Assembly: GCF_965363235.1 (NCBI RefSeq)
Contig: NC_134838.1
Coordinates: 20,012,441 to 20,076,440 of the forward strand
Length of the DNA stretch: 64,000 nt
Direction of reading: 5' to 3'
Source of the DNA: Mytilus galloprovincialis
Taxonomy: Eukaryota > Mollusca > Bivalvia > Mytilida > Mytilidae
Below the pieces are notes generated by a model, which made no database searches, was not told where the DNA came from, and saw only the letters and a list, made by a program, of their open reading frames with translations. Both the position numbers and the translations under genes were made by a program. This document shows, in pieces, positions 32,996 through 54,411 of this stretch; position 1 is the first letter of the stretch; every line of letters begins with the position of its first letter.

Positions 32996-33036
32996 TTCAA
33001 GAAATGATTTTTTCATTGTCAACCGAATAGTATATG

Positions 33037-34168
33037 TAGGACTCTAAAGTGCGATGGGGACGCTAAAGAACGATGTTCACGCTAGAGTGCGATGGTCTAC
33101 GCTAAAGTACGTGGTTCCATACGCTAAAGTGCGATGGTCCAGAAAAATATAGACGTAAAAACGTAGTTCGATAATAACGTTAACAGTTGTTTATACAAAC
33201 TAAAAATGAGCATACCGGTAAATATATTAGGAATATTTGATTAACAATTTTTACACCATATGTCCATGACTTACGAGTAATTGATTGAATTTAACCGTTC
33301 TTTGTCGGCTGAATCACAATGTTTATTTTTTTTTTTTCGAGTGCTGGAAAAAGGACTTGTATCCTACAGTCGACCATTTTACTGTATAAATACAAAACTG
33401 TATATGCATAATTGTCCTGCTTCTATTTGAAGCGAACGGATACATTCGAATCATTATTTATGTGGCAGTTTACTTTGTGATCCCCGTTAAAATGACGTCG
33501 ATTTTTAATGAAAAGTAACGTCGGTATAATAGAGACACATCTTTTCATGCGTTAACTATAAATTGTCCTCTAAAACATAAGTTCGTAGTGTATTTTGTAG
33601 AAAAATATGCAAAAGGAGAAAGCTCGGCGAACATTGCATTTCTCTCGTATTTAGATTTAAGCTTATGTACATATTCCGACAATGAACGAATTAGAGATTT
33701 TTAATTTTCAGACAAATGTAATAGGAGGTAGGTTGTAACATTAGAGTGAACGGCAATCTACACCAATTATCCAAATATTCAATACCCTCCGAATTTTTAA
33801 AAATTCATTTTACATGAAATATAATATTAGCAAAACACAAATTACCTTTATAGCAAATTATTACTTGGTCGGAAAAATTTAGAAACAATTACTTCCGCCT
33901 ACCGGTAAATTGTAAAGCCTATCACATATGTTATACCTTAGCATAATATAGCATAATAGCTTTTGCAAAAAGACTTTTTAAACCTCGATATTTTAATACT
34001 TCGAATCTTACCCTTTGGACCATCACACTTTAGCGTGATACACCATCGTACTTAAGCGAACAAACAGCCAACGCGCTTTAGCGTGAGACACCATCGTACT
34101 TTAGCGTAGACCATCGCACTTTAGCGTGACCATCGCACTTTAGAATACCATCGCACTTTAGAGTCCTA
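33037..34168. mobile_element. 1.13-kb foldback element with iterated terminal repeats
   Basis: The left end reads TA GGACTCTAAAGTGCGATGG (33037 onward) and the right end is its inverse, CCATCGCACTTTAGAGTCC TA (ending 34168). Inward, the left arm repeats CGCTAAAGTGCGATGGT-like words about five times (33039-33140). The right arm repeats ACCATCGCACTTTAGCG-like words about six times (34018-34160). Flanking TA on both sides fits a TA target-site duplication. The 0.9-kb centre is AT-rich and has no credible ORF, so it is non-autonomous. Confidence 0.88.
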
Positions 34169-46950: not shown

Positions 46951-47461
46951 ATGTCTACACCGGTGTCAACATGATGATAGTAACTGCGATTACGATCATC
47001 CCAATATGGCGGACACAAATTTAGAGAAATTTTAGGAGGTCGATGTATCCACTTTAACAGCTTATTTTCATATTTTTTTAAATCAAAAAAATCTTTATAA
47101 GCATTGCCATCAATGCGTTCTCAACTAAAATTTCAAATTCTCATGTACAGTTTTTTTCATACATTCCGTGAAATAACTAGGAAATAGCATATGTCAATGA
47201 AAAGATGCTAATTTTGAATAATTTGTCAAAGTATTTCTCAATTTTTTAATTGCTTTCATATTTTGTATAAGGTAGCATCTTTTTATAGTACATATGCTGT
47301 CTGTTTGATTTTATATTCTTCCAGCATTTAAATTTGATGTAGATGCTGTTGTTAAAATAATAATGTACTGGAGCATCTTACTTTTACTAGGATGCTAGTT
47401 TTGCATATATTTTTTTTTTAAACATTTTTTTATTTTTTGGGGATGCTGGATTTCCTATATA

Positions 47462-47760
47462 TTGAAATGCTGGCATCCAGTCATATTGGGATGGTGGCAT
47501 CCCGTTTTACCGAGATGCTGGCATCCAGTCATATTGGGATGCTGGCATCCCATTTTATTGAGATGCTGGCATCCCGTTTTATTGGGATGCTGGCATCCAG
47601 TCATATTGGGATGCTGGCATCCCGTTTTATTGAGATGCTGGCATCCCGTTTTATTGGGATGCTGGCATCCCGTTATATTGGGATGCTGGCATCCCGTTTT
47701 ATTGGGATGCTGGCATCCCGAAAAAGCTGGATGCTGGCATCCAAAACTGTAGGAGTGCAG
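47462..47760 (+). repeat. 24-bp minisatellite, left arm
   Basis: About 12 units of a 24-base repeat: the near-palindrome GGATGCTGGCATCC plus a 10-base spacer such as CGTTTTATTG or AGTCATATTG. The repeat length is divisible by three, so long repetitive ORFs (MLASRFIG and others) appear in several frames on both strands. They are not evidence of a protein. Confidence 0.95.
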
Positions 47761-48149
47761 ACATCGCAAAATATCCGAATGCAGTAATCCTAAAAGTTCT
47801 GTTTGATATACTGTTGGCCGAATTTCTATAGATGTACTCCAATGCATAATTTTGTGTAATGCAAAAAACAAAACAACAACAAAAATCCGTTTGTTGTTTT
47901 CCTCCCAACATTTTATCTAATGACGTCAGGGATATTATGACGTAAGAGGTGTTTTACCATCATGCGTAGAGATTCATGCAGAGACAGTAAACATGATAAG
48001 AAATCAAATCTCACGAATCACTTATACCGATGTAAATATTTTTTGAAAAGTAATTAAAACAGGTAACCCTTTTAATATTCTCTTATTTATTAGTTTTTCT
48101 TATGTTTAATACTGAAAGCGCTTGCACTATTTTTCTACGCTAATTGCGG

Positions 48150-48308
48150 CAAATCCCACCCGCATGACGTCATGTAAAAAGAATGTTAAAAATCGGCGAA
48201 ATGGACGCAAGGGGAAGGACGAAACACACTTCTTTGGCCAGTATGCCGCAATTTATTATCATTTTGATATAACAGAAACATATACGCAATAGAACGCTAC
48301 TCATACAG
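48150..48308 (+). ncRNA. Candidate promoter and first exon of a non-coding transcript
   Basis: Three CRE-like sites lie upstream: TGACGTCA (about 47921), TGACGTAA (about 47938) and TGACGTCATG (48165). A GC-richer stretch then ends at CATACAG|GTAAGA (48308). The nearest good acceptor is at 50439. There is no long ORF. This is inference from signals only. Confidence 0.25.
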
Positions 48309-48475
48309 GTAAGACAAAGTAGATTTTCTTATATTTTACATGCACTTCGTAGTCCTAGATTTCTCAGATTTAGCCATTCATAAGGAATATCCTACTCAAC
48401 TCGACAACTGTATGTCTGTAATGGTTTCATATACATATTATCAGATGTCTAATTTTTCTATAGGAGACGATTTGA

Positions 48476-49510
48476 CTTGTGCCCGTCCGAGATTTATACT
48501 CTGACGTCCTACGCTCATGGGCCTACATGTAGCTTGTCTTGAAAACAGCTGTTTGAAGTCCGAGCAATATCGGACGCATTTTCAGTGACTTGATACGCCA
48601 GCCAGATAATATAATTCTGATTACTTCCAGAGGGAAAACTACAGGCTTAAATGGTTTGGCAACAATGATTAATGTCAGTCGCCAGATTTTCCCATGTCGT
48701 CGGGGAGGGATGCACTTCGATCCGTTTGTGGTAGCCAATGGTGATTCCAGAACATTCTATAAATGGGATTTGGGGGGGGGGGGGGTGGGGGGGTCACTGA
48801 CTGCCATAACAAAGGGACCCGCTAAAGTCATCTTTTAGTGTTTACTTGTATAATAAACCAAATTTTTTCACACGAAAAAGGAGGGGGGCTGGATCCGCCT
48901 ATGGTAGCGATGAGCCTCCAAGACAGACATACTTTAATATGACTATGAGAGTTTTTACCTTTTTTTACATCGAGTCTATGAGAGAGAAATTATGACTGTG
49001 ACAGTGCTTGGTGCTAAATTACCAAAAAACTTGAAGGAAGACTAGCTATTTCTATATTAGGGTAGGTATGGAAATAGGAAATACACATATATTCTTTTTA
49101 TTTTGCTTTACAGAAATATGTACTTTTTCATGAAGTTATGAATAGTTTTGACAAAAATATGATCGACATAAACCCCACCGAGACGATTAACCACCATCAA
49201 TATGGCCATGGCCAGTAAAAATATTGGGTCCGCAAAATTAATTTGTTTACCCCTATAGACAACCTATAAGAAAACCATTAAAATGCATCACTGGTAAGAG
49301 TCCTTTGAGTTTAAGAAAAATAAAGTATGAAAAACTTAATTTCAGATTAATTTTTGGTCTAGAAAATTGAATGGGTTGATTGCCTTTTTTTTGCAAGGGT
49401 CTAAAACCAGTTAACTTGTGCCCGTCCGAGATTACTCTGAGTCTTGACTTCCTACGCTCATGGGCCTAGCTTGTCTTGCAAAACAGCCGTTTGAAGTCCG
49501 AGTAATATCT
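48476..49510 (+). repeat. Pair of direct repeats about 95 bp long, 939 bp apart
   Basis: 48476-48572 and 49415-49508 share CTTGTGCCCGTCCGAGAT, CCTACGCTCATGGGCCTA and CAGCTGTTTGAAGTCCGAG / CAGCCGTTTGAAGTCCGAG. The tract between includes a G-rich run (48772-48793). Confidence 0.85.
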
Positions 49511-49660
49511 GAGTAATGGTATGATTGCTAATGAGACAACTCTCCACCGGACTGAGACCAAATAATATAGCACTAATATGACTAAGCAGTTTACAATTAA
49601 ATGTCAGCATATGGCCTCCAACAATGAACAAAACTCATACTGCATAGTCATATATGAATT
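49505..49660 (-). repeat. SINE-like family M inserted in the large element
   Basis: GGTATGATTGCTAATGAGAC, AACTCTCCACC, ATATGGCCTCCAACAATGAA and CATACTGCATAGTCATATA are reverse complement of family M. Confidence 0.75.
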
Positions 49661-50439
49661 AGATTGAATGTAAAATTTGAAATACTATGTTTTAAAAGAA
49701 AGAAACGCTTATCCTACATAACAGATTTGCCGATTTCAAAATAAATTTACTAATATATATACATTTTGTACTTAGCTTACTGGCAAGAATTAATAATAAT
49801 AGTTTACATGTATAGTTTTATGGGTCAAGCTAGTCTTACAAATATGCCTCGGAGTCATCTTTTCATAAATAATTTTAAGCTGATATTTTCGTGATTTATT
49901 TCTTTTTTTTTTAAACGAAGCTCGGGGGAAGCTTGATAATAAAAGCAATGCATATATATAGCAAATTTGCAAAATGAATGAAAAGAAAATACGAAAATTA
50001 AGGAAACTGTAAATATCGCTACAAGAGTTTTGTGTTCCAGGACTAGGCTAAAATTTAAAAAAAAAAAACACACACACAAATTTAAAAAAGGTGTTAACCG
50101 AATACACCCTTAGATGGGAACTAAAGTTCACGAAAGTCGCTAAATACATGTAGGATGTAATTCTAAAAAAAACCCACTTTTCTCCCTTTCATAATGTACA
50201 GTATAGACCTGGATGTTGTTCCATAAAAAAATCAATTGAACTAGTGGTTCATATGTCAAATGTATGTGTTTTGAATATTAACAACAGGCATATATTGGTG
50301 TGGAAAACTTAATTTAAAAGAAGTTTAAATGAAGGTTTTCTTCGAATAATAATGCGTTTTCTCGTTCCCTAGTGTTGTGATGTTACAACGAAAATTTATT
50401 GTTGAAAATCTTTCATATAATTATTATTTCTCTTTTCAG

Positions 50440-50727
50440 CATTTGTAAAGAAGTGGCTTCACCTTTCTGGTTACTATTCATGTGTTGTGTATTAATGTAT
50501 CGCAACACTTTATAGTTATTGGACAGGTTAAACTCAGACGACGAATCATCCAAACAGCACCAGATCATTTGTGATTCCAGCTGATTTCAGATTACTAGCA
50601 ATACATGATAATAGAAAGTTTGAAAGTTCCAGTTCGTGTAACTGATTTGATTAAATGATTAACAAATACCGGTATTGAAATATTAAAATACAGAAAAAGA
50701 TACAAGTTTAATAATGATTGTAATAAA
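50440..50727 (+). ncRNA. Candidate last exon of a non-coding transcript
   Basis: Strong acceptor ATTTCTCTTTTCAG (ending 50439), no long ORF, and AATAAA at 50722-50727. It pairs with the possible first exon ending at 48308. A donor-like ACAG|GTTAAA at about 50527 could split it further. Confidence 0.22.
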
Positions 50728-51764
50728 GAAAATGTAAGTTTTGTTAATAAAATGAAAGGCTCAAGTACTAGAAGATCCTGACATGATGTACTGACTCATT
50801 GGAAGATGTATACAGCAAGTCCAGAGATACTGACAATATCCAGTATGTACAGATCATAGACACTGTGCACTAGTATCAATAATAGATTATTTTTAAATAT
50901 TGCATTATGGTACACGTTTTATTGTATACAGGCAATTGCGGGAAACAAATCTCCTTAATTTATACATTGGATGCCAATGGGGTTTCTCATAGACACAAAA
51001 CAAAAATTATTATGCAGGTTTAAATATAACGCACCTCATATTTAGCATTTTAATAAAGGTACAGTCACCAATCCGTTTTGTAGAGTGTTTGTCCTGGATG
51101 ACTTAGTTAATCAGACATTCCCAAGGTTGATGGTCATTGGGCAAATTCATTTGATTGATAAAATGCCATACAAAATTAGCAGCATTTTTTTTTAATTTTG
51201 TCCAGTTGATTTCTGAAAGCCTTGGGAACTACTAAACTTGATATGATTTCAGCTGGCAATTGCATTAAGCTTATTAAAAAAAAAATTCTATGAACATTCG
51301 AAACATGAGCATATCAGATTTGAAAATTATAGTCCTGATGTCATCATATATAAATGTATCGTCTCGAGACCACAATAGTCAATAACATGTATACATCATG
51401 TCTTACATAATGGTAATCAAATTCAGAAAAATAACATTAAAATTGGCTAATTATTGGAAACTTACCGGTAGTACATTGACATAGTTTTATAAATATCAAA
51501 TTGTTGACATCAGCATTCACATGGTCAACTAGCACTTTACAATTCAGACTCAGTTTGTTGGTCAAGTATACATTTCACACTCTTACCTATGATGTCACAT
51601 TCTCAATATGCATTAAACTGGAAATGTACTAGGTGTTATATTGGTGGATTAATACTAAAATCCAATTGATTAGGAAGCAGCATTTAAATTCGTATGTCAT
51701 AATGAAAAATGGTACATGTCTGCAAGGTTGTGATGCCAGAATCCCTATATTTTGGTATGTCAGC

Positions 51765-52085
51765 ATCCAGATATATTGAGATGCTAGCATCCGGATATTT
51801 TGGGATGCCAGCATCCGGATATTTTGGGATGCCAGCATCCGGATATATTGAGATGCCAGCATCCGGATATTTTGGGATGCCAGCATCCGGATGTTTTGGG
51901 ATGCCAGCATCCAGATATATTGGGATGCCAGCATCCGGATATTTTGGGATGCCAGCATCCAGATATATTGGGATGCCAGCATCCGGATATTTTGGGATGC
52001 CAGCATCCAGATATGTTGGGATGTCAGTTTCCGGATATGATGGGATGCCAGAATCTATAAATAATTGGAAGCCAGCATCCAAACG
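51765..52085 (+). repeat. 24-bp minisatellite, right arm
   Basis: About 12-13 units: the near-palindrome GGATGCCAGCATCC plus 10-base spacers GGATATTTTG or AGATATATTG. The core is the reverse complement of the left-arm core GGATGCTGGCATCC. Repetitive ORFs (GMPASGYF and others) are artefacts. Confidence 0.95.
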
Positions 52086-53024
52086 TTGAGGTATTCAATA
52101 TGAAATTAAAAGAATTACATCAGCATCTATCAAAGGTGAAGATGCAATTTTAATCTTTTTCGTCATTATCTGCAGATACTTTTTTGAAATATGCTATGTA
52201 CAGAAATAAGAAGTGCTTTTTATACAAAACAATTTCACAACTACAAAAGTTATTAATATAATCGAGAGAGCATCCATAATCTTTAAGACCCAATAAAATT
52301 CATTATGTAGCATCTACTATTCATAGAAATAAATGAATCAGTATGATTTTTGGTAAAATGAGCATATATTGATACTTAAACAAATGCAATATAGTAGAAA
52401 TATTCCGAATATGGAACATGGCCGTAACATTTTCTCTGGACATTGAAAAATTTAGTAGAATACAACATAATTTTACCTTAAAAATTCAAAAATTGTCAAA
52501 AAATTCTCTTTAAGCATATGAGAATTACAAATTTTAGTTGAGAACACATTCATCGAATGTGTTTTTCCTAGATAATAGAAAAACAATCAGAAGAACAAAA
52601 ATCGAGATTTAAAAAAACACGATGATGATCGTAACTTCGTCTATGGATGATCGTAACTTGGACTAGTTTTTATAAAATGATGATCGTAACTCAAAATTTA
52701 CGATGTTGTTTTTTCTTTAAATGAACATCATATTTAGCAGTCACGATATATTGGTCTTACTGAAAATAGTATGATTTTACAACTAAACAAAATGAGCGTT
52801 AATGAACAGCGACATTTGTCAAAAAGAAATGACATAAGGGGAAATTAGCAAGCTTATATGAAAATGTCCTAAATATTTATTTCTTATAAGTAATTTAGTT
52901 AACATTTAAAATGGAATACGTTTATATGAAGTAAATATAAATATCATCATCATGATACAGTTTAAGAATACAGGCCAAAACGTTCACTGAATATTTTAGA
53001 AATGGCTATTAAGTAATGGTAGGC

Positions 53025-53200
53025 ATGAAGATGCGGATTTAGAGGGAGGGACAGGGTGCCTGCATCCACTTTTTGTAGAAAAAAGTTTTGTTGGTTATAT
53101 AGGGAACCAGTGAAACATGACCTGTAGCGGGCCTACTCTTAGACAGCCAGTCGCCACCCCCTTTATAAGAATTTCTGATCCGCCACTGCACTTCTGTTAC
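53025..53200. mobile_element. Short MITE-like element with CGGATC-type ends
   Basis: GATGCGGATTTAGAGGGAGG at the left and GAATTTCTGATCCGCCACTG at the right are roughly inverted. The centre holds GCCAGTCGCCACCCCC. A related fragment GGCTGGATCCGCCTATGGTA is at about 48888. Confidence 0.5.
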
Positions 53201-54116: not shown

Positions 54117-54411
54117 ACAGACAGTTACGATCATCATAAAAAAAAGTTACGATCATCGTTGATAAAAATAAATACAAGTTACAATCATCATCGAGATTTT
54201 TTGTATCTCGATTTTCATTCTTCTTGTTGCTTTTCCATCATGTACGAAAACATATTTCAATGGCAATGCTTATAAAGATGTTTCTTGACATAATGCAAAT
54301 CTAAAAATAAGCTGTCAAAGTGGAGAAATCAGACTTCTAAAATTTCTATAAATTTGTGTCCGCCATATTGGGATGATCGTAATTGCAGTTACGATCATCA
54401 CGTTGACACAA
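54117..54411 (-). mobile_element. Short deletion derivative of the large foldback element
   Basis: Read in reverse complement it begins GTGTCAACGTGATGATCGTA, continues CCAATATGGCGGACACAAAT and GCATTGCCAT (left end of the large element, 46962-47118). It then passes directly into AAAATCGAGAT and GATGATCGTAACT words (right end, about 52570-52690). It lacks the roughly 5.4 kb between and lies in opposite orientation. Confidence 0.8.

Follow-up and report, generated by a model that had tools for sequence, protein, structure and literature searches.

Within a 64,000-nucleotide stretch of Mytilus galloprovincialis DNA (assembly GCF_965363235.1, contig NC_134838.1, positions 20,012,441 to 20,076,440; hereafter the window), two minisatellites face each other in mirrored orientation on either side of a long centre. 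A reading of the window from its sequence alone had joined them with the GATGATCGTAAC-type sequences on their outer sides into one large foldback-type element at 46962-52690. The locus thereby raises the question of what sort of element this is and where it begins and ends. Genome-wide comparison indicates, with a probability that we put at roughly 0.8, that the window holds a copy of a recently active, non-autonomous cut-and-paste transposon family of the terminal inverted repeat (TIR) type, binding-site arrays included, inserted in an older and unrelated repeat. It appears to be a new family within a sort of element already known, and not a new kind of thing.

Borders of the element and the repeat around it

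The genome searched was one assembly of 1.385 Gb in 331 contigs, of which C1 to C14 measure 73 to 133 Mb; the window belongs to C1. With the left arm (47112-47440) as query, all 40 scored matches (58 candidates) started at 47112 with 92-100% identity, and with the right arm 32 of 40 scored matches (68 candidates) stopped exactly at 52550, again with 92-100% identity. These borders lie inside the interval first proposed, and the sequences at 46962 and 52690 belong to the repeat in which the element sits. Searches with 46962-47118 and 52466-52720 (40 matches scored in each, out of 303 and 213 candidates, respectively) found both supposed ends elsewhere in the genome. Matches to the first query mostly stopped near its base 149, those to the second mostly began near its base 86, and the two often adjoined. 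When the window flanks were joined with a single CATC, they aligned straight across the junction in 26 of 26 target-repeat loci. These loci were drawn from both end searches with the window's own two excluded, and two of them (L007 and L024) overlap. Because every locus crosses the junction without the element, the GATGATCGTAAC sequences are two parts of one older repeat, and the empty-site comparison that the sequence-only reading had named as a check refutes the ends it claimed. A large foldback element with GATGATCGTAAC ends draws its support from the fact that both sequences flank the arrays in the window; the uninterrupted junctions speak against it, as do the element copies elsewhere, which have different flanks, and we give it next to no chance of being right.

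In the window the target repeat begins at 46958 and extends past 53000, with piecemeal similarity to about 53400, the end of the compared stretch. A second, inverted copy of this repeat (GTTACGATCATC type) is found 1.6 kb farther right, at 54145-54409, and lacks the element.

The element is bounded by TIRs of 33 nt that start with AATGYGTTCTCAACTAAAATTT and agree, left against right, at 30 of 33 positions by direct reading; inverted-pair detection returned a 36-nt pair at 89% that includes flanking bases. A TIR pattern of 22 bases, with up to two mismatches allowed, was matched 114 times genome-wide as opposed to 12 times for a control in which the pattern was reversed. Among the 100 TIR matches listed, 66 make up 33 facing pairs, 30 of them at 5.0-6.7 kb and three longer (8.3, 17.1 and 18.8 kb). 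A 4-bp target-site duplication (TSD) was perfect in 26 of the 34 copies with both flanks read, and at least 3 of 4 bases agreed in 33. By comparison, no copy had a perfect duplication at 5-9 bp, and flanks mispaired between copies as a control agreed perfectly at 4 bp in 20 of 1122 cases. This sample of 34 excludes one-ended copies and some copies read on one flank only, for example those at C1:66.5, C1:88.2 and C8:35.0. A and T make up 84% of the 26 perfect duplications, which share no fixed motif. Two copies within the sample, C9:69223413-69229025 and C9:69459306-69464918, have identical 12-base flanks while lying 236 kb apart, and each matches at 3 of the 4 TSD bases. Given the shared flanks, this is probably a single insertion that was duplicated as part of a larger segment, and not two insertions.

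Six near-complete copies were compared in full, namely that of the window and L049, L050, L051, L053 and L054; L052, fetched without its left end, was left out. With arrays and gaps excluded, the six are pairwise 97.1-99.5% identical. The TSD, the near-identity of the copies, arrays that differ in length among them and the lack of a transposase-like open reading frame (ORF) together argue for a recently active non-autonomous TIR transposon that would be moved in trans. TIRs on dispersed copies, a TSD of fixed length and an empty site, the features that define TIR-order transposons, were all found. Coordinates are collected in the table.

Table. Features of the window element and of its target repeat, in window positions
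Feature	Position	Strand	Basis
Whole element, probably a non-autonomous TIR transposon, 5439 bp	47112..52550	+	Ends common to genomic copies, empty site, 4-bp TSD
Left TSD, CATC	47108..47111	none	Flank reading, empty site
Right TSD, CATC	52551..52554	none	Flank reading, empty site
Target repeat, left part, including the formerly proposed left end	46958..47111	+	Genome search, empty site
Target repeat, right part, including the formerly proposed right end	52551..53030	+	Genome search, empty site
Left TIR, AATGCGTTCTCAACTAAAATTTCAAATTCTCAT	47112..47144	+	Inverted-pair detection, direct reading, genome pattern matches
Right TIR	52518..52550	-	Inverted-pair detection, direct reading, genome pattern matches
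Left unique arm, dispersed GATGCT/AGCATC motifs	47145..47439	+	Motif count, left-arm matches
Left minisatellite, 24-bp unit, core GGATGCTGGCATCC	47440..47742	+	Tandem Repeats Finder (TRF), 12.6 copies
Centre, no recognised coding content, no GATGCT; two conserved putative TGACGTCA sites; direct repeat of about 100 bp	47745..51724	none	ORF/Pfam, motif counts, genome search
Right minisatellite, 24-bp unit, core GGATGCCAGCATCC (left core on minus strand)	51728..52055	-	TRF, 13.7 copies
Right unique arm, dispersed GATGC motifs	52061..52517	-	Right-arm matches, motif count

Mirrored arrays, arms and centre

Much of the internal layout given by the sequence-only reading was borne out. TRF delimits 24-bp arrays on both sides, with cores that are reverse complements and spacers that differ. 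The array unit is the near-palindromic GGATGC-TG-GCATCC. The six copies have 8-12 exact cores in the left array and 9-19 in the right one, and the two sides vary independently, in agreement with the earlier proposal that the arrays expanded separately. GATGCT-rich zones are likewise present in both arms, where GATGCT/AGCATC occurs 9 times in 819 bp compared with 17 times in the 58 kb outside the element and 0 times in the 3981-bp centre. A double-core pattern made of exact cores was matched 804 times in the genome and its reversed control not once. The 100 double-core matches listed, from C1 up to 105.87 Mb of 133 Mb, all lie inside five family members, and no free-standing array of the 24-bp unit occurs among them. 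In each of these five elements the core is on opposite strands left and right; every copy seen thus has mirrored polarity. A comparison with Rfam gave eight matches up to E 0.5, every one below the gathering score and inside the arrays, and we take these as chance matches from hairpin-forming repeats.

The centre had been described as free of transposase, and we found no transposase-like ORF in any of the six near-complete copies. Among stop-to-stop frames the long ones traverse the arrays, and the longest outside them measures 152 aa (in L050). Six non-array frames from four copies gave nothing above the curated cut-off in Pfam. Two putative CRE-like TGACGTCA sites, also reported from the first inspection, recur at equivalent points of all six copies. 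A genome search with 1.1 kb of the centre hit 39 places apart from the window, all of them at family copies, and none of these matches (40 scored of 286 candidates) pointed to a separate origin of the centre. Within the centre, 48467-48574 and 49406-49512 form an imperfect direct repeat of about 100 bp whose copies are 940 bp apart. Four family members (C11:81.10, C8:35.00, C4:84.63 and C1:66.49) lack a stretch at about 48893-49405, which ends where the second copy of this direct repeat starts. The region is possibly a small nested element.

Search for a transposase and possible role of the arrays

A transposase-coding partner was sought in the same assembly, of whose 114 TIR matches 100 were listed. 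The two longest TIR pairs listed were read, together with ten ends that were unpaired or variant and ten matches of weaker TIR likeness, mostly over 1.5-1.9 kb each, and no such partner was found among them; an 11.8-kb pair (C9:33.03) and the 8.3-kb pair (C6:38.17) were read at their ends only. The pair at C3:91.29-91.31 Mb (17.1 kb, L055/L056) proved to be a window-type element with a retroelement nested inside, which by its protein motifs we take to be a long terminal repeat (LTR) retroelement. That at C4:32.39-32.41 Mb (18.8 kb, L057/L058) is also a window-type element, here with another repeat nested inside. This nested repeat (L057:3314-6498, L058:4509-7192) has two 328-bp satellite arrays of 9.7 and 8.2 copies with units that are reverse complements, and the interior between them carries reverse transcriptase (RT)-like ORF fragments.

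The ten unpaired or variant ends (1.5-1.9 kb each) were rejected as arms of partial or diverged copies or as chance matches. Reading was extended at C11:36.73 Mb (by 7.0 kb) and C9:67.87 Mb (by 5.0 kb) only. At C11:36.73 Mb a PIF1-like helicase fragment (PF05970) lies beyond a left arm. The 1.1 kb around the start of this fragment gave 42 matches (40 scored of 1595 candidates), and because no other match lay at a family copy, we read it as an unrelated neighbour. One of the ten weaker TIR matches is an arm fragment (L074), the inner part of which is a different high-copy repeat; the other nine had no arm match.

The structure of the element suggests how it might be mobilized. A transposase would act in trans, provided by a partner not seen here; it would cut at AATG...CATT and stagger the target by 4 bp, of which the duplication is observed and the enzyme postulated. 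It may recognise GGATGC-type subterminal sites spread over both arms. The near-palindromic GGATGC-TG-GCATCC unit would then offer the recognition site twice, and slippage or unequal exchange could have amplified it in tandem into a large binding-site array at each end, with large arrays helping the element to compete for transposase. By analogy with what is reported for the Drosophila transposon Galileo, we think that the units may be amplified, putative transposase-binding sites. A bolder proposal is that the termini AATGNGTTCTCAACT and the 4-bp TSD mark an undescribed superfamily whose transposase assembles on the mirrored palindromic arrays, array length setting transposition and being selected; we regard this as improbable.

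Several results weigh against a recently active family equipped with binding-site arrays. Apart from the partner that was not found, some copies are not young: BLAST with gaps places the five other copies at 93-97% identity to the window over long pieces, and the family includes diverged members with centre pieces down to 76%, one short piece at 70% and, in L064, a right arm at 76% identity. On how the arrays arose, whether as inverted or as direct duplicates, the results diverge. Local alignment of array against array scored 216 inverted and 200 direct; the array edges favour the inverted arrangement (30 and 24 versus 22 and 18), and the spacers fit the direct one better (5.5 versus 4.6 of 10). 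Because the core is a near-palindrome, a direct or an inverted origin is not settled by these scores. Array lengths come from one assembly and are possibly affected by assembly error. Finally, GATGC sites in the arms were not significantly better kept than random 5-mers, whether in all copies (fraction of random sets kept equally well 0.257 right, 0.29 left) or in diverged copies (0.13 right, 0.26 left), in a test in which some rows were truncated, poorly aligned copies.

This lack of significant conservation in the arm motifs keeps passive expansion in play as a serious rival, which we rate at somewhat below even odds. Here the transposon would be as described above, but the palindromic 24-bp unit would have been expanded by slippage with no role in transposition. 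The variation of array length among copies fits such an origin, and in single-stranded form 120-nt pieces of array DNA fold well (z -7.5 left, -3.8 right), a property that could promote slippage. Passive arrays accord poorly with GATGCT being scattered over both unique arms as well and absent from the centre, with mirrored polarity in all five elements listed and with the confinement of the arrays listed to this element.

Likeness to known elements and meaning of the family

The label foldback-type, given to the locus earlier, holds in part. Tandem repeats inside both mirrored ends, one hallmark of foldback elements, are present; the other hallmark, long inverted repeats that fill most of the arm, is not, the unique arm beside the arrays having no significant inverted match. 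Because only the outermost 33-nt tips are inverted repeats outside the arrays, this is not strictly a foldback element. The statement that no named element has this layout was too strong, since Tetris and one Galileo copy carry tandem repeats inside both inverted ends (PMC4079207, PMC4168063).

Tetris, a non-autonomous foldback transposon of Drosophila virilis, resembles the window element in being apparently non-autonomous, in having no conserved ORF and in carrying tandem repeats inside its terminal inverted repeats; its authors, after Galileo, suggested that internal repeats add transposase sites (PMC4079207). It differs in its 8-10-bp TSD, its repeats of about 220 bp and the occurrence of satellite arrays outside the element as well (PMC4079207), whereas the window element has a 4-bp TSD, near-palindromic 24-bp repeats, a 33-nt TIR and 0 of 100 listed array matches outside the family. 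Galileo, of the P superfamily, likewise carries tandem repeats at either end in some of its copies (PMC4168063), and its THAP-domain binding sites sit in tandem repeats of its long TIRs (PMC3688188). In contrast to the window element, with its 33-nt TIR and a 4-bp TSD that lacks a fixed motif, Galileo shows a 7-8-bp TSD with a GTATTAC-like consensus, long TIRs and, in one D. willistoni copy, repeats of about 140 bp (PMC4168063). Because its TSD is 4 bp and not of the lengths seen in Galileo or Tetris, we do not class the window element as a P- or Mutator-type foldback.

Tandem-repeat arrays are also found in oyster elements, and the Cg_HINE and pearl non-autonomous Helentrons of bivalves share with the window element that they are mobile, lack an enzyme of their own and carry such arrays (PMC7492417). 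A non-autonomous Helitron or Helentron (HINE, pearl-like) with tandem repeats is nevertheless a highly improbable identity for it. Helitrons make no target duplication (PMC7492417), whereas 26 of 34 copies here have a perfect one, and for this reason we do not consider the element a Helitron. In addition, TIRs stand at both ends, and HINE arrays are central repeats (PMC7492417) where the window element has one array per side.

As regards superfamily, Academ and Sola are candidates only. Sola1, Academ, Chapaev and Ginger elements overlap in TSD length. Amoebozoan Sola2 elements have 4-bp A+T-rich TSDs and TIRs of 12-21 bp (PMC3627910); their likeness to the window element is one of TSD length and composition only and is not specific to Sola2. 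Both Academ and Sola elements have been reported in bivalves (PMC10294476). Among open-licence papers judged by title and start of abstract, none was recognised as describing this transposon family, and literature matching the core and TIR strings included, by title, no transposon or mollusc paper among those listed.

The window contains a second, shorter element at 33035-34168, with mirrored minisatellites of about 19 bp (CTAAAGTGCGATGG type) and, at its ends, inverted sequences of about 100 bp. Searched against the genome, it gave 133 matches (40 scored of 1497 candidates), of which 24, the window copy included, span more than 1080 of 1136 bases at 81-100%. The genome thus holds another element of similar layout but different sequence.

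Delimitation of the element corrects the annotation of a locus at which two unrelated repeats had been read as a single element, and provides exact ends, a target duplication and an empty site for what is probably a recently active transposon family of unassigned superfamily. Should the reading as an undescribed superfamily be true, array length itself would be under selection. Whether an element gains from multiplying transposase-binding sites is a question raised for Galileo and Tetris. Since the arrays differ among near-identical copies, and those listed on C1 are confined to the element, this Mytilus family would offer a clean system in which to ask it.

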